Part shown: one piece after another, positions 2,723 through 12,044 of the stretch
Layout of the letters: every line of letters starts with the position of its first letter
Position numbering within the stretch: the first letter of the stretch is position 1
NCBI RefSeq assembly: GCF_018063565.1
Contig: NZ_JAGPBB010000032.1
Coordinates: 1-39,153 of the forward strand
DNA length: 39,153 nt
DNA from: Rhodoferax sp.
GTDB lineage: Bacteria > Pseudomonadota > Gammaproteobacteria > Burkholderiales > Burkholderiaceae_C
Direction of reading: 5' to 3'
Program-made: the position numbers and the translations under genes
The notes under the pieces: model-generated
Seen by the model: the letters and a program-made list of their open reading frames with translations, nothing else
Database searches by the model: none
What the model was told of the DNA's origin: nothing

Positions 2723-3070
2723 ATGGGCAACACACAAGAAAAACTCAATGAGATATCCAGTCTGATCAGCAAATTGAAGGCTGGCTATCCCGCCGAAACC
2801 AATGCATTTCTCGGCTTCATGCGCAAGGCGGAGGGTGGCAAGGCCTTGACCCTGCGTGAGAAAGAGCTGATCAATGTAGGGTTGTCCGTCGGCGCACAGT
2901 GCGAGTGGTGCATTGCCATTCATGTGCAGCATGCCATTGAGGCCGGTGCCAGTCGTGACGAGGTGATGGAAGCCGGCTTCATGGCGGTGGTGATGCACGG
3001 CGGGCCGGCCCTGATGTACATGACGCCGCTGCTGGAGGCTGTGGAAGAGTTTCTTCCCCAACAGCATTGA
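2723..3070 (+). CDS. Carboxymuconolactone decarboxylase / AhpD-like protein
   Basis: 115-residue single-domain protein of the CMD/AhpD family. The core motif KELINVGLSVGAQCEWCIAI carries the CxxC pair and is followed two residues later by His, the redox-active arrangement of AhpD-type disulfide reductases. The second half (EAGASRDEVMEAGFMAVVMHGG) is the usual helical trimerisation region. Likely role: cytoplasmic thiol-dependent peroxidase or disulfide reductase; a decarboxylase activity is less likely because of the CxxC. The start at 2723 is chosen because GGGAG lies at 2711-2715; the ATG five bases upstream is in another frame. It precedes a two-component system on the same strand by about 150 bases and is more like core genome than the cassette region before it. 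Confidence 0.8.
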   Translation: MGNTQEKLNEISSLISKLKAGYPAETNAFLGFMRKAEGGKALTLREKELINVGLSVGAQCEWCIAIHVQHAIEAGASRDEVMEAGFMAVVMHGGPALMYMTPLLEAVEEFLPQQH

Positions 3071-3223
3071 CGTTGTCTGAGTTTCTGGCGCGGCCATGTC
3101 CGACTGGTGGGGGGGCAATGCGGGCATCGGACGGCTGGCGATCCAACACAAAACCATCCATCGTCCCGCCTCTTGCGGATGGGTGACGTGGCGCAGTAAA
3201 CCCCTGTGCCAAAATGATTGGGC

Positions 3224-4696
3224 ATGTTTGCGAACCTCAAACGCCTTCAGAACTGGCTGCTGACCTGGGTAGCACTTTCAATATTGACTGGTGTTTTTAT
3301 TGCGCGCCAGGCATTGACGCGACAGCAGGATGTGTTTGACACCCATGCGCGCATCGTGCACCGGTTGCTGAGCCAGCGTGTGGTGCAACTCGACGCCATT
3401 TTGGCGACACTTGCGCTATTGCGCAGCGGCACCTCGGCCGACGGTTCCGAGCAACGCCTGCCGGCGCTGTATAGCCAGATTGCGGCCGCCGCGCGCCGTG
3501 GGCCAGACGAGGCATGGCCCACGGCGTCGCTCGCCAGCGCCGAACTGGAGTCACAAGGCTTGAAGCGCGCAGTGCTGACTGATATCGACCTGCAAAAAGG
3601 CACTTACCAGCTGGTGCTGGCCGCGCAGCCGGACAGCTATGCACTGACCATCAACATCCGCAATCTGGTGCCCTGGGCCGAATGGCCCATGGCACCAGAG
3701 ACCAGCCCGGTCCAAGTGCGGTTGCAGTTGGCGCAGGCCAGCTACATCCTGCAGGCCGGGCGTCCGTTTGCGGCGGATGATCCGGGTTGGACTTTTGAAG
3801 CCCGTAAAGTACTGGCGGCCGACAGCCAGCCGTTTGAGGTGGTGTCGCAACTGCATCTGGCCTGGTCCACCTTGCCATGGATCTGGATGTTCTTGAGTGC
3901 GGCAGCGCTGGCCCTTGTTCTGTCGCGTGCCCATGGGCTGGTGCAACAGCGCGTGCAGCAGCAGCGTGATGCACAGCGGCAGCGCCTGGGCCAGCTCACC
4001 CGGCTCAATACGCTGGGCGAACTCGCCGCCGGCATGGCCCATGAAATCAACCAGCCTCTCACGGCGATTCTGGCCAACACCCAGGCCGCCAGCCGCATGC
4101 TGGATGATGTCGATCCGGACCTGCCTGGTGCGCGTAGCGCCATGCGCCTGGCGGTACAACAGGCACGCCGGGCGTCTGACGTAGTCGGCCGGCTGCGCCG
4201 CATCGTGGAACGCCCCGGCACGGGTGCGACGTCGCAACGCGTCAACCTGCATGGCGCATGCCGCCACGTGCTGTATCTGCTGGAGCCCGAGTTGCAACGC
4301 AGCGGATGCACCCACACCCTGAGTATGAACGGTGCACCCTTTGACGTATTGGCCGACCCTGTGGCACTGGAACAGATCATCCACAACCTGCTCACCAATG
4401 CCCTGCAAGCGATGGAACCATTGCCGCCCCAGAACCGATCGCTGACTCTGCTGCTGAGCTGCACCGAAACGCTGGGGCAACTGCAGGTGCAGGACAACGG
4501 GCCAGGCATACCGGCCGAGGCACTGTCAAAAGTGTTTGAGCCATTCTTTTCGACCCGCGAAGGCGGTTTGGGTTTGGGCCTGAGCCTGTGCGAAACCCTG
4601 GCCATGAACATGGGTGCAAGCCTGAGTGCGGCCAACCGGCCTTCGCAGGGGGCAGAGTTCACGCTGCAGATACCGCTGGCCCGCACCGCAGCATGA
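3224..4696 (+). CDS. Membrane sensor histidine kinase (FixL/DctB-like)
   Basis: About 490 residues. An N-terminal membrane segment (LLTWVALSILTGVFIA) and a second one (WMFLSAAALALVL, about residue 220) bracket a periplasmic domain of roughly 180 residues with no recognised fold. Then follow a basic linker, a HisKA domain with the phospho-acceptor in GMAHEINQPLT (His about 273), and a HATPase domain with N-box NLLTNALQAM, G1 box DNGPGIP, F-box FEPFFST and G2 box GLGLGLSLC. All catalytic boxes are intact. The start is taken as ATG 3224; a TTG two codons upstream is possible and no good ribosome site is seen for either. Its stop overlaps the response-regulator start by ATGA, so the two form one transcription unit. 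The stimulus is unknown; the periplasmic domain suggests an extracytoplasmic one. Confidence 0.85.
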   Translation: MFANLKRLQNWLLTWVALSILTGVFIARQALTRQQDVFDTHARIVHRLLSQRVVQLDAILATLALLRSGTSADGSEQRLPALYSQIAAAARRGPDEAWPTASLASAELESQGLKRAVLTDIDLQKGTYQLVLAAQPDSYALTINIRNLVPWAEWPMAPETSPVQVRLQLAQASYILQAGRPFAADDPGWTFEARKVLAADSQPFEVVSQLHLAWSTLPWIWMFLSAAALALVLSRAHGLVQQRVQQQRDAQRQRLGQLTRLNTLGELAAGMAHEINQPLTAILANTQAASRMLDDVDPDLPGARSAMRLAVQQARRASDVVGRLRRIVERPGTGATSQRVNLHGACRHVLYLLEPELQRSGCTHTLSMNGAPFDVLADPVALEQIIHNLLTNALQAMEPLPPQNRSLTLLLSCTETLGQLQVQDNGPGIPAEALSKVFEPFFSTREGGLGLGLSLCETLAMNMGASLSAANRPSQGAEFTLQIPLARTAA

Positions 4697-5322
4697 CCAC
4701 CCCGCTCTCTCCCCTGATTCATCTGATCGACGACGACGAGGCGGTGCGCTCGAGCCTGGCACTGCTGATTGGCACCGTGGGGCTTCGGGTGCAACCGTGG
4801 GCAGATCCCGAAGCATTTTTGCAGACGTTTGACCGGGACAGCATTGGGGCCATTTTGCTGGATGTGCGCATGCCAGGCATCAGCGGACTGACAGTGCTGG
4901 ACAGGCTGGTGCAGCAAAAGGTTGACCAGCCCGTCATCCTGCTCACTGGCCACGGCACCATCGATATGTGCCGTCGCGCCTTCAAATCCGGTGCCACCGA
5001 GTTTCTTGAAAAACCGGTGGACGACGAACGTCTGCTTGAAGCGCTGCAGTCCGCCGTGCGCCAGCACGTGCAGTCACGCCAGCGCAACCAGGCCGACCGG
5101 CAAACGCGCCTGCGCTACGCACAACTGTCGCAGCGCGAGCGCGAGGTGCTTGGCATGATCGTGGCAGGCCTGACCAACAAGGAGATAGGTCGCGCACTCC
5201 AGGTGTCCCCACGCACCATAGAAACCCACCGCGCCAACCTGTTCGCCAAGCTGGAGATTGACGCGTTGGCGCAGTTGGTGCGCCAGTACGCCGCGCTGGC
5301 GGACGAAGACGCCGCAACCTGA
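4693..5322 (+). CDS. FixJ/LuxR-family response regulator
   Basis: 209 residues. The receiver domain has the acidic cluster IDDDEA at the N-terminus, the phospho-acceptor Asp in LLDVRMPGISG (about residue 57), Thr in LLTGHGTID and Lys in FLEKPV. A short linker leads to a GerE/LuxR helix-turn-helix (LSQREREVLGMIVAGLTNKEI, then VSPRTIETHRANL). This is the standard FixJ architecture and the partner of the kinase it overlaps by four bases. The start at 4693 is fixed by the ATGA overlap; longer versions upstream would lie in another frame of the kinase gene. A perfect palindrome begins immediately after its stop codon and precedes the next gene, a plausible target site. Confidence 0.9.
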   Translation: MTTPLSPLIHLIDDDEAVRSSLALLIGTVGLRVQPWADPEAFLQTFDRDSIGAILLDVRMPGISGLTVLDRLVQQKVDQPVILLTGHGTIDMCRRAFKSGATEFLEKPVDDERLLEALQSAVRQHVQSRQRNQADRQTRLRYAQLSQREREVLGMIVAGLTNKEIGRALQVSPRTIETHRANLFAKLEIDALAQLVRQYAALADEDAAT

Positions 5323-5340
5323 CTGCGTAGTTCTACGCAG
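5323..5340. promoter_or_regulatory. Perfect palindrome, candidate response-regulator operator
   Basis: CTGCGTAG-TT-CTACGCAG: two 8-base arms with a 2-base centre, starting on the base after the regulator stop codon. A further GCGTAG half word follows at 5347-5352. There is no T-run, so it is unlikely to be a terminator. FixJ/LuxR regulators bind dyad sites of about this size. It lies about 100 bases before the GlcG-like gene, a position suited to an activator site. A second, shorter palindrome (ACGGTT-N5-AACCGT) is at 5397-5413. Confidence 0.55.
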
Positions 5341-5396
5341 GTTCGGGCGTAGCCGCACCGATAGGCAACAGGCGCCCAGTTTTTTACAGTGCTCAC

Positions 5397-5413
5397 ACGG
5401 TTGATTGAACCGT
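5397..5413. promoter_or_regulatory. Short inverted repeat before the GlcG-like gene
   Basis: ACGGTT-GATTG-AACCGT, 6-base arms around a 5-base centre, ending 27 bases before the GlcG-like start codon. It could be an operator or a small 5'-leader hairpin. No function is assigned. Confidence 0.3.
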
Positions 5414-5440
5414 TTGATGACCAAAAATCTGGAGTAACCC

Positions 5441-5929
5441 ATGCGAAAAATTCACCTTGCCGCCTTGATTCTTTCCACCGCCGCCACCAGCGCCAGCGCA
5501 CAGGCTGTGCGTACCGAGCGCAATATGTCACTCGACCTGGCCAATCAGATTGCCGCCGCCACCGTGGCCACCTGCACCGCCAATGGTTATGCCGTCACGG
5601 CCACCGTGGTCGACCGCGCCGGCAGCGTGCGCGCGGTCCAGCGCGCAGACCTTGCTGGCCCACACACGCTGGGCGCGAGCCAGCAAAAGGCATTTACCGC
5701 TGCCTCGGCCAAAAACACCACGCTGGCCATGATGGAAGGGGCACAAAAAAACCCTGCGGCTGCCAATCTGGTTTACATCCCGGGCTTCCTGCTGGTGGGA
5801 GGGGGGGTGCCGGTCAAGGTTGGCAACGAAGTCATTGGTGCGGTGGGCGTGGGTGGTGCACCCGGCGGCCATCTGGACGAGCAGTGTGCCGTCGCGGCAC
5901 TCGACAAAGTCAAAGAACTTTTGAAGTAA
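5441..5929 (+). CDS. Exported GlcG/HbpS-family (DUF336) protein
   Basis: 162 residues. A clear Sec signal peptide (basic MRKIHL, hydrophobic AALILSTAATS, cleavage near ASA-QA) precedes a complete heme-degrading/HbpS domain: helix MSLDLANQIAAATVATC, strand VTATVVDRAGSVRAVQR, the GPHTLGASQQKAFTA helix, and the glycine-rich GAVGVGGAPGGHLDEQCA end. HbpS-type members bind heme and, in Streptomyces, signal to a two-component sensor (SenS/SenR); other members have no proven role. The ATG has GGAG 7 bases upstream. It lies directly downstream of a kinase-regulator pair and a palindromic site, so control by that pair is likely. A periplasmic heme- or redox-responsive role is inferred from family and context only. 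Confidence 0.85.
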   Translation: MRKIHLAALILSTAATSASAQAVRTERNMSLDLANQIAAATVATCTANGYAVTATVVDRAGSVRAVQRADLAGPHTLGASQQKAFTAASAKNTTLAMMEGAQKNPAAANLVYIPGFLLVGGGVPVKVGNEVIGAVGVGGAPGGHLDEQCAVAALDKVKELLK

Positions 5930-5994
5930 ATCAGGCTATAGCCCAATATTTATGAAACAAGCATGCAATATTTTTCGTAGCAAAGATAGCAATA
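5928..5994 (+). repeat. Dispersed intergenic repeat, copy 1
   Basis: This AT-richer stretch begins AAATCAGGCTATAGCCC and ends with GTAGC, AAAGATAGCAATA words. It aligns with the minus strand of 27392-27459 (AAATATGACTCTAGCGC ... GTAGCGAAGCAATA) over its whole length with gaps. The pattern resembles a short dispersed repeat I associate with Polaromonas/Rhodoferax-type genomes; the family name is not known to me. It fills the gap between the GlcG-like and ankyrin genes and contains an ATG (5952) in frame with the ankyrin gene. Confidence 0.55.
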
Positions 5995-5999
5995 ACACC

Positions 6000-6701
6000 A
6001 TGACAAACTCACTTTCACGCCGGTTGTTGCGGGTCATGCAGATCACTTTTGGCGTGGGTGGTTTGATTGCCATTCAGTGGTGCCACGCGCAGGTGGAACC
6101 ATCAACCAGCGAGATCGCCGCTTACCGCGGCTTGCACGCAGCCGCAGTGCGTGGCGATGTACGAACCATTGAAAGGCTGGTTGCCGCCAAAGCGGACCTG
6201 AATACACGAGATGCTCAAGGCCGCACGCCCTTGCATGTCGCCACCTTTGCCAGGCAGCGCGCTGCCGTGCATACACTGGTGCAGGCGGGTGCCGAGACCA
6301 GCGCGCTGGAAAATGATCGCTACGACGCTGTCACCATTGCCGCGGTGGCCGATGATGAAGAAACCCTGCGCATCCTGCTGAGTCTGGGTGCCAGCGCAAA
6401 GCTGGTAACCAGCCGTTATGACGGCACGGCACTGATTGCCGCCGCGCATCTGGGGCACGATGGCGTGGTGCGACAGCTCATTGCGGCAGGCGCTCCGCTG
6501 GACCATGTGAACAACCTGCACTGGACGGCCGCCATCGAATCCATCGTGCTCGGCAATGGTGGGCCCAGACACCAGGCAACTCTCAAGGCCTTGGTGGATG
6601 CGGGTGCTAACGTGCAACTCGCTGATCGCCATGGCAAGACGCCGCTGGTGCTGGCGCGCAGCTATGGTTATGCAGAAATGGTCAACGTACTGGAGAAATA
6701 G
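6000..6701 (+). CDS. Exported ankyrin-repeat protein
   Basis: 233 residues from the ATG at 6000. The N-terminus is a signal peptide or anchor (SRRLLRVMQITFGVGGLIAIQW, cleavage likely after CHA-Q). About five ankyrin repeats follow, recognisable by AYRGLHAAAVRGDVRTIERL, DAQGRTPLHVATFARQ, YDGTALIAAAHLGHDGVVRQL and HGKTPLVLARSYGYAEMV. Ankyrin repeats are protein-binding scaffolds; periplasmic relatives such as Pseudomonas AnkB support peroxide defence, but this gene is not specifically matched to it. An ATG at 5952 in the same frame would add 16 residues, but these are encoded by a dispersed repeat and do not look like a signal peptide, so 6000 is preferred. It probably belongs with the GlcG-like gene before it and ends 16 bases from the convergent cyclase gene. 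Confidence 0.8.
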   Translation: MTNSLSRRLLRVMQITFGVGGLIAIQWCHAQVEPSTSEIAAYRGLHAAAVRGDVRTIERLVAAKADLNTRDAQGRTPLHVATFARQRAAVHTLVQAGAETSALENDRYDAVTIAAVADDEETLRILLSLGASAKLVTSRYDGTALIAAAHLGHDGVVRQLIAAGAPLDHVNNLHWTAAIESIVLGNGGPRHQATLKALVDAGANVQLADRHGKTPLVLARSYGYAEMVNVLEK

Positions 6702-6717
6702 CAGAACCTTGATTGAT

Positions 6718-8328
6718 TCATCGGTAGGCCATCGCGAACGCGTTCTTGCCACTGCGTTTGACTTCGTACATGGCCATATCGGCGTGATGGATCAGCGCCG
6801 AGGCGGTTTCGCCGTGCCGTGGATAACAGGCAATGCCCATGCTCAATCCGACCTGGACGGATTCACCGCCACCGAGCTGAATCACCTCTGATAGATGTGC
6901 CAGCAATCCCAGCGCGGTATCGCACAGGTGTTGGCTGTCTTCGTCGGCATCGCGCAGGGCCACAATAAACTCGTCTCCGCCTACCCGGGATGCAAGGTCT
7001 GACCCGCGCCGCACCAGCTTGCGGATGCGCCGCGCCACCTCAACCAATACCTCGTCACCCGCGGCATGGCCATAACCATCATTGATGGCCTTAAAACCAT
7101 CCAGATCGAGGTGAATGACACACAGCCCGCTGGCTTGCGTGCGCGCTGCGTCCAGCATTTGTGCCAGGGTGACATCGCAGCCACGGCGGTTGCTCAAGCC
7201 GGTCAGCGGGTCGTGCAAAGACCTGTGGCTGGCTTCAAGTTCGGCTTGCTTTCGATCGGTGATGTCGTAAATCACCCCTTCAATGGCCCCCGACCTCTCG
7301 CCCGGCTGGTCTTGAGTTTCAGCCCGTGCCGTGACCAGGCAATGCACCCACTTTGACGGACCATCGATACCGCGCAATTCGAGATCCACAGACTCTGTGC
7401 CGCCGTGAAATGCGGCTCTGCTGACCATCTCATGGAACGCATCGGGCTGGGCGAATGTGGTGTCGACAAACGTTTCGTTTGGATCCGCGCCTTGGCCATA
7501 GTCATCCCAACCCGTCAAGAAACGTGCCCTGGCATTGCAATGGATCAGTTGCATGCGGGGTGTCATGACAAAAATACCGGCACTGCTGGCAGAAAATATG
7601 GCCTCGTATTCGGCACCTAATTGGGCAATTTCCGCCCGCAGGTCACGCTCGCGTTGCAACGCCAGTTCCTGCGACGTCAACAGTTCATTGGCGCTGCGGA
7701 TCAGGGCGCCCAGTTCGTCGTGCTGGTGAAATGCCGGCACATCGAGCCGTTGACCGGTTCCCGGGACGATGGCGCGCATGGAGCCGGCAAGTTCAACGAT
7801 GGGTCTGGACACCAGACGTGTCGCCACCCCATAGAGCAAAAGCGCCACCAACAGAGCTTGCGAGAGCATGGCCCACGCCAGCACCCATGCATCCGAGCGG
7901 GCTGCACTGCGAAGCACAGCCATGTTGGCGGCGATCCGTATCAAACCAGTGGTTTCCGCCGCGTCGAAAGGGGACTTCAGCTTGCGCTCAACCCAAATAC
8001 CGCCATCTTCCAGGGGAACGTCGGTTTTGTTGCCTCGGGCCACAACCCACGGCGTTTCGTTGGCACGCTTGACCTCCACAAAGCCCGCCAGCGGATTCAG
8101 TGACAGACCATCGACCACCTCCTGCAGCAAAATGGCATCGTCGGCATAGGCTCCGATGCTGGCTGTCCTTTCCACCGCCACGAGTAAACCATTCAGCGTG
8201 TCCTCGCCCTGACTCAGTGCACGGTTAAAGGCACCCAGGTAAGCCAGCAACGCACCGCCGCTGGCAAGCAGGCCAGCGACCACCAGCAGGGCGATCAACA
8301 AACCATCCTGAAGCCGTTTAAGGTGCAT
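6718..8328 (-). CDS. Membrane diguanylate cyclase with HAMP, PAS and GGDEF domains
   Basis: 536 residues. TM1 (LLIALLVVAGLLASGGALLA), a periplasmic part of about 120 residues, TM2 (AWAMLSQALLVALLLYGVA), a HAMP-like linker (SRPIVELAGSM), a PAS domain (EAIFSASSAGIFVMTPRMQL to YDITDRKQ) and a GGDEF domain. The active motif VGGDEF is intact, and RGSD lies five residues before GGDEF, giving the RxxD product-inhibition site. It should make cyclic di-GMP with feedback control. It overlaps the PstS-like gene by 11 bases and is the last gene of a three-gene unit with that gene and the porin, so phosphate-like ligands or a periplasmic partner may control it. That link is inferred from gene order. Confidence 0.92.
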   Translation of the reverse strand: MHLKRLQDGLLIALLVVAGLLASGGALLAYLGAFNRALSQGEDTLNGLLVAVERTASIGAYADDAILLQEVVDGLSLNPLAGFVEVKRANETPWVVARGNKTDVPLEDGGIWVERKLKSPFDAAETTGLIRIAANMAVLRSAARSDAWVLAWAMLSQALLVALLLYGVATRLVSRPIVELAGSMRAIVPGTGQRLDVPAFHQHDELGALIRSANELLTSQELALQRERDLRAEIAQLGAEYEAIFSASSAGIFVMTPRMQLIHCNARARFLTGWDDYGQGADPNETFVDTTFAQPDAFHEMVSRAAFHGGTESVDLELRGIDGPSKWVHCLVTARAETQDQPGERSGAIEGVIYDITDRKQAELEASHRSLHDPLTGLSNRRGCDVTLAQMLDAARTQASGLCVIHLDLDGFKAINDGYGHAAGDEVLVEVARRIRKLVRRGSDLASRVGGDEFIVALRDADEDSQHLCDTALGLLAHLSEVIQLGGGESVQVGLSMGIACYPRHGETASALIHHADMAMYEVKRSGKNAFAMAYR

Positions 8329-10092: not shown

Positions 10093-10343
10093 GGGGTTCA
10101 AAGCGTCAATGCATCCTGTTGCAATGGTAACGCCTTCCCCAGATAAGGGAATGGTTTGCCTTGCCAGCTATATGCCGAAGCCAGATCCAGCTAATGAACC
10201 TGATATCAGCGTCACCCCGATGCAAGCCACAGTCCCCGCGCCCACGTGAGTCGTGATTGGGCAAACGCCGTGGTGCGTACCCGCTATTAGAATGCGTGCT
10301 CGGCGGCAACGTCGATGTGCCACTGCGGAGGATGCACAAACCC

Positions 10344-12044
10344 ATGCCAGAGTCTTTAACACCATCACAGATTGGCCCAGCAGGCACCAGTGTCTCCACG
10401 GCATTTGGCGCTTTGGAGCCAGGTGCATCAACGGACGACGTGCTGACCCTGCCGGTGGGTACGCGCATTGCCGAGTTCGTTGTCACCGGTTTGATCGGGA
10501 TTGGCGGCTTTGGCATTGTTTACCGGGCACATGATGAGTCGTTGGGGCGGGTAGTGGCGCTCAAGGAGTACATGCCCTCCTCATTGGCATACCGTCGGGA
10601 TGGGCACACGGTGTCGGTCAAGTCGAGCCGCCACGCCGACACCTTTCAGGCGGGTTTGAAGAGTTTTGTGAACGAGGCGCGCATGTTGGCCTTGTTTGAC
10701 CATCCGTCGCTGGTCAAGGTCTACCGGTTCTGGGAAGCCAATGGCACTGCCTACATGGTCATGCCCTTGTATGAGGGTCAGACGCTGAAAAAAGCCATGG
10801 CCGAGATGGCCGGGCCGCCACCCGAGGCTTTGTTGCGGCAAATGCTGGCACCCTTGCTTGATGCGCTGGAGATCATTCACGCCAAGAACTGCTTTCACCG
10901 CGACATCGCACCCGACAACATCTTCCTGATCAACACCAGCCAGCCAGTGCTGCTTGATTTTGGGGCGGCCAGACAGGTGATCGGAGACATGGCCAATAAC
11001 CTGACGGTGATCCTCAAGCCGGGTTACGCCCCAATTGAACAATACGCCGCCGACCCCAATCTGCCCCAGGGTGCCTGGACCGACATCTATGCCCTTGGTG
11101 CCGTGCTCTACCACGCCATCACCGGCCGTCCGCCCGCAGTGGCTGTAGGCCGGCTGGTGAAAGACAGTTATCAGCCACTGGCCTCCAGTGTGCATGGCGT
11201 CTACAGCCAACAATTGTTGTGTGCGGTGGATCGGGCACTGGCTGTGCGGCAGACTGACCGACCACAGACGGTTGCCGAATTCAGGCAATTGCTGGGCGAG
11301 TCAACCGCCGAGCCGACAGCCAGCCAGAACAGGCCAGCTACTCCCATGGCGCCAACAGTCGCCGCAAAGCCAGGCTCGTCTGCTGCGGCACAGTGGGTGG
11401 TGATCGGTGGTGCGTTGGCGGTGTTACTGGGTTTGGGTGGCTACTTTTTCGTGGCCGCAGGCAAGGCACCAGCCGAACCCATCGCCGCCCCCGCAGTGGT
11501 GGGCGCAACGCCACCTGTCACCGCCAGACCACCGCAGCTTCAAGCGCCACCTGCGCCGATCACTGTCTCGGCATCGGTTGCCGTTGCGGCAGCGGCTTCG
11601 GCTGTTGCACCCGTGGCGGTTTTGGCGGCACCTGCCGTGCAGCCAGCCAGCACAGCGTCCGCCACTTCAACACTGCCCAAGGTCAGGGCCACTCCTGCTG
11701 TAGCAGCCAGCACAGCCACGGCGACATCGGCAGCCGCGAAGCCAAAGCCCCCGCCGGCGGTGGCATCCAAAGTGCCAGAAGGTGAATTCAGCACCCGGCC
11801 GTTGGCCACAGTGACACCGGTTGAACGCACATCCGAGACCACCGCCGCCCTCAAACCAGAGGCCGGCAAGCCCGACTGGTTGACCGAGTTACGCAAACGC
11901 CTGGCATCCTGCGAGGAAAAGAATATTCTTGAACGCGTGTTTTGCATCGAGCGCGCGCGCCGGAAACTCTGCGAGCCAGATCACTGGGGCAAAGTGGACG
12001 AGTGCAGGGTATCGAACACCCCGGTCAATGAAGGGCGCTGGTGA
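10344..12044 (+). CDS. Membrane-anchored Ser/Thr protein kinase
   Basis: About 566 residues. The kinase domain has the glycine loop GIGGFGIVYRA, VALKEYMPS with the ATP-binding Lys, HRDIAPDN (catalytic Asp about 186) and DFGAA (Asp about 205), all intact, plus PGYAPIEQY in the activation segment. A transmembrane helix (WVVIGGALAVLLGLGGYFFV, about 350-373) separates it from a long Ala/Pro-rich periplasmic stretch and a compact C-terminus with four cysteines (SCEEKN, FCIERA, LCEPDH, ECRVS). Start choice: GGAGG at 10327-10331 is 12 bases before ATG 10344; it abuts ATG 10332 and is too close for that codon; a TTG at 10257 lacks support. Substrates are unknown. The C-terminal cysteines may form two disulfides in an extracytoplasmic sensor tip. 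Confidence 0.88.
   Translation: MPESLTPSQIGPAGTSVSTAFGALEPGASTDDVLTLPVGTRIAEFVVTGLIGIGGFGIVYRAHDESLGRVVALKEYMPSSLAYRRDGHTVSVKSSRHADTFQAGLKSFVNEARMLALFDHPSLVKVYRFWEANGTAYMVMPLYEGQTLKKAMAEMAGPPPEALLRQMLAPLLDALEIIHAKNCFHRDIAPDNIFLINTSQPVLLDFGAARQVIGDMANNLTVILKPGYAPIEQYAADPNLPQGAWTDIYALGAVLYHAITGRPPAVAVGRLVKDSYQPLASSVHGVYSQQLLCAVDRALAVRQTDRPQTVAEFRQLLGESTAEPTASQNRPATPMAPTVAAKPGSSAAAQWVVIGGALAVLLGLGGYFFVAAGKAPAEPIAAPAVVGATPPVTARPPQLQAPPAPITVSASVAVAAAASAVAPVAVLAAPAVQPASTASATSTLPKVRATPAVAASTATATSAAAKPKPPPAVASKVPEGEFSTRPLATVTPVERTSETTAALKPEAGKPDWLTELRKRLASCEEKNILERVFCIERARRKLCEPDHWGKVDECRVSNTPVNEGRW

Follow-up and report, generated by a model that had tools for sequence, protein, structure and literature searches.

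The Streptomyces kinase SenS is of the HisKA_3 type and has several transmembrane helices. In Streptomyces, as set out in passages of one report, the response regulator SenR activates hbpS, senS and senR, and the secreted protein HbpS modulates the kinase SenS (PMC3754957), and homologues of this HbpS-SenS-SenR system are spoken of in actinobacteria in part of another (PMC4991794). Proteins of the HbpS type are common and few have a known role. We describe here a locus of Rhodoferax sp. in a stretch of 39,153 nucleotides (NZ_JAGPBB010000032.1, hereafter the window; it is contig C45 of G000, an assembly of 4.13 Mb), whose close relatives are Rhodoferax and other Comamonadaceae. In this locus the genes for a membrane histidine kinase, a FixJ-type response regulator, an HbpS-like protein (hbpS) and an ankyrin-repeat protein (ank) follow one another. 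The pattern of conservation points to a two-component system that probably has a very narrow regulon and would activate hbpS-ank through tandem sites of one promoter; on our best reading, its main target is the exported HbpS-like protein, usually together with its ankyrin partner.

Recurrence of the kinase, regulator and hbpS genes

The N-terminal part of the kinase (residues 1-254) was searched against 299 genomes of the window's family and matched in 58 of them, spanning 42 of 141 genera. Outside the window there were 57 matches, of which 56 were fetched with their flanks (G291, where the match is on a 4.3-kb contig, was left out). Kinase, regulator and hbpS stand in this order on one strand in 48 of the 56 relatives, with ank following in 38, and in 47 of the 48 ordered loci hbpS lies at most 300 nt from the regulator gene. 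As for the eight loci without this order, L117 and L147 end at contig edges, L165 shows no regulator match and only a fragment of hbpS, L167 has neither a regulator nor an HbpS match, L127 has lost hbpS, L159 holds another gene in its place, and L148 and L151 carry hbpS-ank elsewhere. The ankyrin gene is absent from the fetched stretch in 17 of the 56 loci, three of which (L117, L147 and L155) are at contig ends. In L165 (genome G226) the kinase open reading frame (ORF) overlaps the HbpS fragment, and the module seems to have decayed there.

The preliminary description, whose gene positions were all borne out in the window, had counted five genes in the unit. Four of them, ank less constantly than the others, do recur together, but the fifth, an AhpD-like gene upstream of the kinase, remained without a phmmer match (E 1e-4) throughout a set of 73 loci (the 56 fetched ones and 17 named ones, some genomes being in both) and was rejected as a member.

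The association was also examined from the side of the HbpS-like protein, its mature form being searched in 150 genomes of the family and, separately, in 250 genomes of the order. In the family, 25 matches reached at least 211 bits (at least 76% identity), the next best scoring 163 bits, and they fell in 25 of the 28 kinase-positive genomes and in none of the 122 kinase-negative ones (nominal Fisher value 2e-25, kinship ignored). The three kinase-positive exceptions are G133, with a 58% identical orthologue elsewhere under the same promoter, G134, where hbpS is lost, and G110, which has the second weakest kinase match. In the order, 18 matches reached at least 187 bits; the 13 that lay in other families were fetched, and kinase and regulator genes stand directly upstream of hbpS in 12 of them, L275 having neither. 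Both are likewise present beside the HbpS-like gene of G128 (L219). Among 18 loci with weaker HbpS-like genes (L220-L230 and L276-L282), none adjoins both a kinase and a regulator, with the proviso that the sequence of L278 breaks off about 0.7 kb before the gene, too near for a judgement.

A predicted tandem operator before hbpS

Straight after the stop codon of the regulator gene begins a palindrome (5323-5340) whose two perfect 8-bp arms flank TT. It had been singled out beforehand as a site lying between regulator and hbpS; the arms are real, but the palindrome is only half of a tandem operator. Across the two collections, the regulator-HbpS intervals of 62 distinct loci (those whose best match was below 11/18, those with too little sequence and duplicates were dropped) share the architecture CT.CGTAG-TT-CTACGGAG, 6 nt, GCGTAGCCG..CG.ATGG, about 16 nt, TT..TACAGT. 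TACAGT is found 44 nt after the palindrome in 49 of these loci, a near match in 10 and none in 3. If TACAGT is taken as the -10 element, the two sites would be centred near -65 and -41, the usual places of activator dimers, the second one where a -35 element would lie. The window's copy of this second site deviates from the strict tandem pattern. In the family, 52 of the 56 loci have the regulator and enough sequence; 49 of the 52 show the core CGTA-N4-TACG and 49 a -10-like element at +44, L148 and L151 being without both after the regulator, and the 8-bp arms are perfect in 17.

The palindrome overlaps the end of the regulator gene in 34 of the 66 loci with a recognisable site, as might be expected of a mere terminator or a coding remnant. 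Such an origin is very improbable, given that the palindrome lies 95-200 nt upstream of hbpS in the 64 loci having both, keeps its place where hbpS has moved away from the regulator, holds a fixed spacing to the -10-like element, is followed by no T-run in the window, and is met again before the kinase gene in other families. The palindrome is, judging from these comparisons, very probably the operator of the regulator before hbpS.

Loci in which the genes have been separated serve as natural experiments linking operator and target. In G162 (L126), 1.3 kb lie between regulator and site while the distance from site to hbpS is kept. In G133, hbpS-ank is found about 8 kb from the regulator with the full promoter, and nothing similar follows the regulator; in G187, hbpS-ank keeps its full promoter at a distance of about 89 kb from the kinase, on one contig with it. 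Finally, G134 has lost hbpS and retains kinase, regulator, operator and ank, the site standing directly before ank, so the rest of the unit can persist without HbpS.

The site is also close to unique in each genome. Allowing up to three mismatches, the palindrome occurs in the window at its own place only. Its 12-base core has one exact copy in the 4.13-Mb assembly plus two one-mismatch places, a count that is uninformative alone since the reversed control word is commoner (78 places). Over 1.12 Mb of loci, CGTAG-NN-CTACG had 57 occurrences in regulator-HbpS intervals against two outside them, some genomes being counted twice and both outside matches being one genome twice. The strict tandem pattern, scanned over the 299 family genomes with its reversed form as control, gave one match each in 43 genomes and none for the control, and the matches fell in 42 of the 58 kinase-positive genomes as against 1 of the 241 kinase-negative ones. 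Of the 42, 40 are syntenic (39 before hbpS, one before ank in G134) and two are the moved copies of G133 and G187; altogether 41 lie before hbpS, 32 of them also with ank. The kinase-negative match, in G149, has no HbpS or ankyrin gene within 1.5 kb and appears chance-like. A search for the palindrome only, with one mismatch, in 20 kinase-positive genomes found 16 sites in 15 genomes, 13 of them at hbpS and one before binding-protein genes by the kinase (G113). Comparison across relatives thus shows the gene order, how the predicted operator is built, that it is all but unique in each genome and that it goes with hbpS, and the link between regulator, palindrome and HbpS that had been conjectured from the window now stands well supported.

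Beyond the family, six loci from three further families (L269-L274) carry a like palindrome twice, once in the regulator-hbpS interval and once just ahead of the kinase gene, an arrangement to be expected if the cognate regulator also controlled its own genes; a core scan bore this out in 6 of 6, with one extra match in L272, and no ankyrin match was found in these loci. In the window's family, none of the 73 loci has the palindrome in the 200 nt before the kinase. In G128 (L219) the kinase has diverged, and a different palindrome with six-base arms, seen by eye, accompanies the same TACAGT; a script for inverted repeats with arms of at least 7 found none before hbpS in L218 and L219, the arms of L218 holding a mismatch. 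Among 19 HbpS-like loci without kinase and regulator, the core is present in two (L220 and L281) and appears chance-like.

Several observations weigh against a one-promoter regulon or soften the evidence for it. The strict tandem pattern misses 16 of the 58 kinase-positive genomes, among them that of the window, where the second half-site departs from it. Two of the palindrome-only sites lie elsewhere with changed centres (G289 and G294), the reversed control giving 5. Since the palindrome often overlaps the regulator gene, conservation there could be partly coding, and the Fisher values are nominal because relatives are not independent. Like operators also stand before other genes: before genes for substrate-binding proteins that directly precede the kinase gene in two lineages, L042:3861 (the same as L129:5855) and L263 (minus strand, ~1546), NMT1/THI5-like by Pfam in L042 and by eye in L263; in L159 (G188:C56), where operator and -10-like element are kept and followed by an outer-membrane beta-barrel gene (PF13505) instead of hbpS; and in the window's own genome, where a palindrome with one core mismatch (G000:C6:1839-1856, L231) precedes a transporter-like gene, DASS-type by eye. 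The latter is perhaps the operator of a paralogous system. A kinase-like ORF lies on the opposite strand there. The surroundings of the one-mismatch site on G000:C55 are unlike the module.

Sensor, HbpS-like protein and candidate signals

The features of the locus are collected in the table below.

Table. Genes and predicted promoter elements of the locus, in window coordinates
Feature	Position	Strand	Remarks
AhpD-like CxxC protein	2723..3070	+	AhpD/CMD, CEWC, PF02627 4.6e-18; judged outside the module
Membrane histidine kinase	3224..4696	+	First transmembrane helix, periplasmic CHASE/dCache-like domain (~residues 33-215), second transmembrane helix, HisKA (H273), HATPase
FixJ-type response regulator	4693..5322	+	Receiver D57, LuxR-type helix-turn-helix; 4-nt overlap with the kinase gene
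Operator site 1, inverted repeat CTGCGTAG-TT-CTACGCAG	5323..5340	.	Predicted dimer site, centre ~-65
Operator site 2, a degenerate copy of site 1 (GCGTAG...)	5347..5364	+	6 nt after site 1; predicted centre ~-41
Predicted -10 element TACAGT	5385..5390	+	44 nt after site 1
Inverted repeat ACGGTT-GATTG-AACCGT	5397..5413	+	Close to the predicted transcript start; may form a stem-loop in the 5' leader
HbpS-like (PF03928) protein	5441..5929	+	Sec-type signal peptide; Cys45 and Cys149 invariant in relatives
Ankyrin-repeat protein	6000..6701	+	Export signal predicted; ORF from 5952, with 6000 the likelier start

The leader repeat varies in sequence between lineages and is often foldable (mean z -1.2, 28 of 61 leaders below -1, against mononucleotide shuffles). 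Convergent to ank, a membrane-type GGDEF protein is encoded at 6718-8328 on the minus strand and is absent from that place in relatives; farther on, at 10257-12041 on the plus strand, lies a serine/threonine protein kinase gene with a long proline/alanine-rich tail. In a Rhodoferax bin (L034:8676-9496) the ankyrin gene is broken into two ORFs.

In agreement with the preliminary description of a membrane kinase with an unassigned periplasmic domain, the window's periplasmic sensor gave no Pfam family at E up to 1, and relatives gave scattered weak matches. An AlphaFold2 model of the sensor built on a 48-sequence alignment (predicted local distance difference test, pLDDT, 95; predicted template modelling score 0.85) shows a long helix, a PAS-like alpha/beta region and the second transmembrane helix. 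With Foldseek, the sole match below 0.001 was an integrative YvaQ-McpB model (template modelling (TM) score 0.46, root mean square deviation 8.9), followed by AHK4 CHASE domains (probability 0.99-1.0, TM score 0.44-0.49, E ~0.01) and Vibrio CqsR (probability 0.82). We name the modelled sensor CHASE/dCache-like, short of a proven member.

We picture the circuit, on the reading of a narrow two-component system, in the following manner, activation, phosphotransfer and the periplasmic location being what we infer. The HisKA kinase would read an envelope signal through its CHASE/dCache-like periplasmic domain and phosphorylate the FixJ-type regulator, whose dimers would bind the tandem sites and activate hbpS-ank. 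When the signal is present, the HbpS-family and ankyrin proteins would be exported to the periplasm, where the probable role of HbpS is to bind or scavenge a small ligand (a tetrapyrrole, iron, or an aldehyde or other organic compound); it may also report back to the kinase.

As to the signal, the kinase may sense a small organic nutrient or an aromatic or aldehyde compound, with the HbpS-like and ankyrin proteins as helpers in its periplasmic handling, which we hold as a tentative possibility. The CHASE/dCache-like sensor would suit it, as would the like operator before NMT1/THI5-like binding-protein genes by the kinase (L042/L129, and L263 by eye) and the similar palindrome before the transporter-like gene in the window's genome. 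Furthermore, according to passages of PMC8153426, the relatives GlcG and PduO are encoded among genes of carbon metabolism, and formaldehyde is sensed by EfgA. However, the binding-protein link is confined to two lineages, and no shared catabolic operon is evident: clustering of the neighbours returned chiefly shadow frames of the four genes, and the GC3-filtered (third-codon-position G+C) nearest neighbours, which are unannotated ORFs, are of mixed strand (101 upstream, 56 plus and 45 minus; 101 downstream, 51 plus and 50 minus).

The HbpS-like protein itself is a member of PF03928 (2.1e-30, 105.9 bits against a gathering cut-off of 25), and its closest solved structure, as best sequence match in the PDB, is 4nkp, a putative extracellular heme-binding protein (2.8e-22); its structure model has a pLDDT of 77. 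It shares 69-89% identity with 49 relatives. Among the 50 proteins, a simple-pattern signal check found an AxA-like site in 50 and a Tat-like motif in none. Cys45, Cys149, Lys83 and Asp146 are present in every one of the 50, His75 in 49 and His144 in 45. In Streptomyces HbpS, E78xxE81 is the iron-binding motif, and a histidine in place of Asp141, as here, is reported for some distant Gram-negative HbpS relatives (PMC3754957); the heme ligand of the PduO C-terminal domain is a histidine, where HbpS has a threonine (passages of PMC4923194). The iron motif is not kept here: the window has G78 and Q81, and Glu stands at these positions in 16 and 11 of the 50 aligned proteins.

These features bear on whether the locus is a three-component system like HbpS-SenS-SenR, put forward as possible in the preliminary description, in which secreted HbpS would bind heme or iron, become oxidised and gate the periplasmic domain of the kinase, so that the operon would induce its own co-sensor. 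Family membership, the co-occurrence and linkage of HbpS with kinase and regulator, the second, kinase-proximal site in L269-L274 and a wiring like that of Streptomyces, with SenR as activator of hbpS, senS and senR in the passages covered (PMC3754957), all speak for it. The motif counts above, namely Glu in 16/50 and 11/50 and a Tat-like signal in 0/50, speak against it, as does G134, which retains the rest without hbpS. Moreover, in the 52 of the 73 loci holding all five parts (pairs with at least 98% regulator identity dropped), pairwise distances of the sensor correlated with those of the catalytic part (0.57), the regulator (0.54) and the ankyrin protein (0.45) and hardly with those of HbpS (0.10; partial 0.04). 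This mirror-tree comparison leaves a kinase-HbpS contact unsupported in these 52 loci, and it is a weak test since HbpS distances correlate at 0.05-0.16 with everything. Taken together, we consider gating by HbpS somewhat unlikely.

An oxidative envelope-stress response, in which the kinase would sense an oxidant and HbpS and ankyrin would protect the periplasm, is less probable still and in our view unlikely. The periplasmic ankyrin protein AnkB adjoins the catalase KatB, and the pairing of an HbpS family protein with an exported ankyrin, together with the invariant Cys45 and Cys149, would fit such a role. Yet the AhpD-like gene is not conserved, and the cysteine pair is also found in 12 of 12 exported relatives (it is absent in L230), mostly not adjoining a two-component system, and so is more likely structural. 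A special redox switch formed by Cys45/Cys149 was rejected as a candidate on the same ground.

Comparison with known systems

The kinase and regulator resemble described proteins in their common parts. The catalytic part of the kinase resembles the TtrS/AtoS/FixL models and the regulator the FixJ/TtrR models, scores being below the curated NCBIfam cut-offs (for the regulator against the FixJ model NF006900, 7.4e-62 and 208.5 bits, cut-off 255), and the regulator also resembles the solved structures of FixJ (5xso) and 1yio, which we take to be StyR. In comparison with FixJ/TtrR/StyR-type systems, the targets are different and the window's periplasmic sensor is without a Pfam family. EfgA and the PduO C-terminal domain (DUF336/PF03928) belong to the same family as the HbpS-like protein by sequence profile (6bws, 5cx7), but they are cytoplasmic or microcompartment proteins in the passages covered (PMC4923194, PMC8153426), which mention no two-component link. 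Judged from titles, starts of abstracts and passages, the literature searched gave no recognised description of a proteobacterial HbpS-like protein with a two-component system, an earlier mention being possible. The locus represents an apparently uncharacterised signalling circuit that is strongly conserved and whose predicted promoter is well defined. Compact as it is (kinase, regulator, predicted operator and about one target promoter) and found in culturable environmental genera, its signal should be findable through what switches the promoter on.

The closest known system is HbpS-SenS-SenR. Common to both are a secreted PF03928 protein encoded beside kinase and regulator genes (here in 48 of 56 loci) and, very probably, control of hbpS by the regulator, reported in the Streptomyces literature and strongly indicated here by comparative footprinting; in some families here the regulator probably also controls its own operon. 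Unlike HbpS-SenS-SenR, the present locus combines a HisKA kinase bearing a CHASE/dCache-like sensor with a FixJ-type regulator in the order kinase-regulator-hbpS-ank, its HbpS-like protein has a Sec-type instead of a Tat signal and no conserved E78xxE81, and an ankyrin protein is added. These differences would fit an origin independent of HbpS-SenS-SenR. A fuller picture, which we regard as speculative and rather doubtful, is that of an independently evolved periplasmic three-component circuit in Burkholderiales-type bacteria. In it a CHASE-like HisKA kinase and a FixJ-type regulator would control about one promoter, from which a secreted co-sensor of the HbpS type and an exported partner with ankyrin repeats would be made, closing a feedback loop on an envelope ligand. 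The comparison with Streptomyces suggests that the HbpS fold may have been coupled to two-component signalling more than once.

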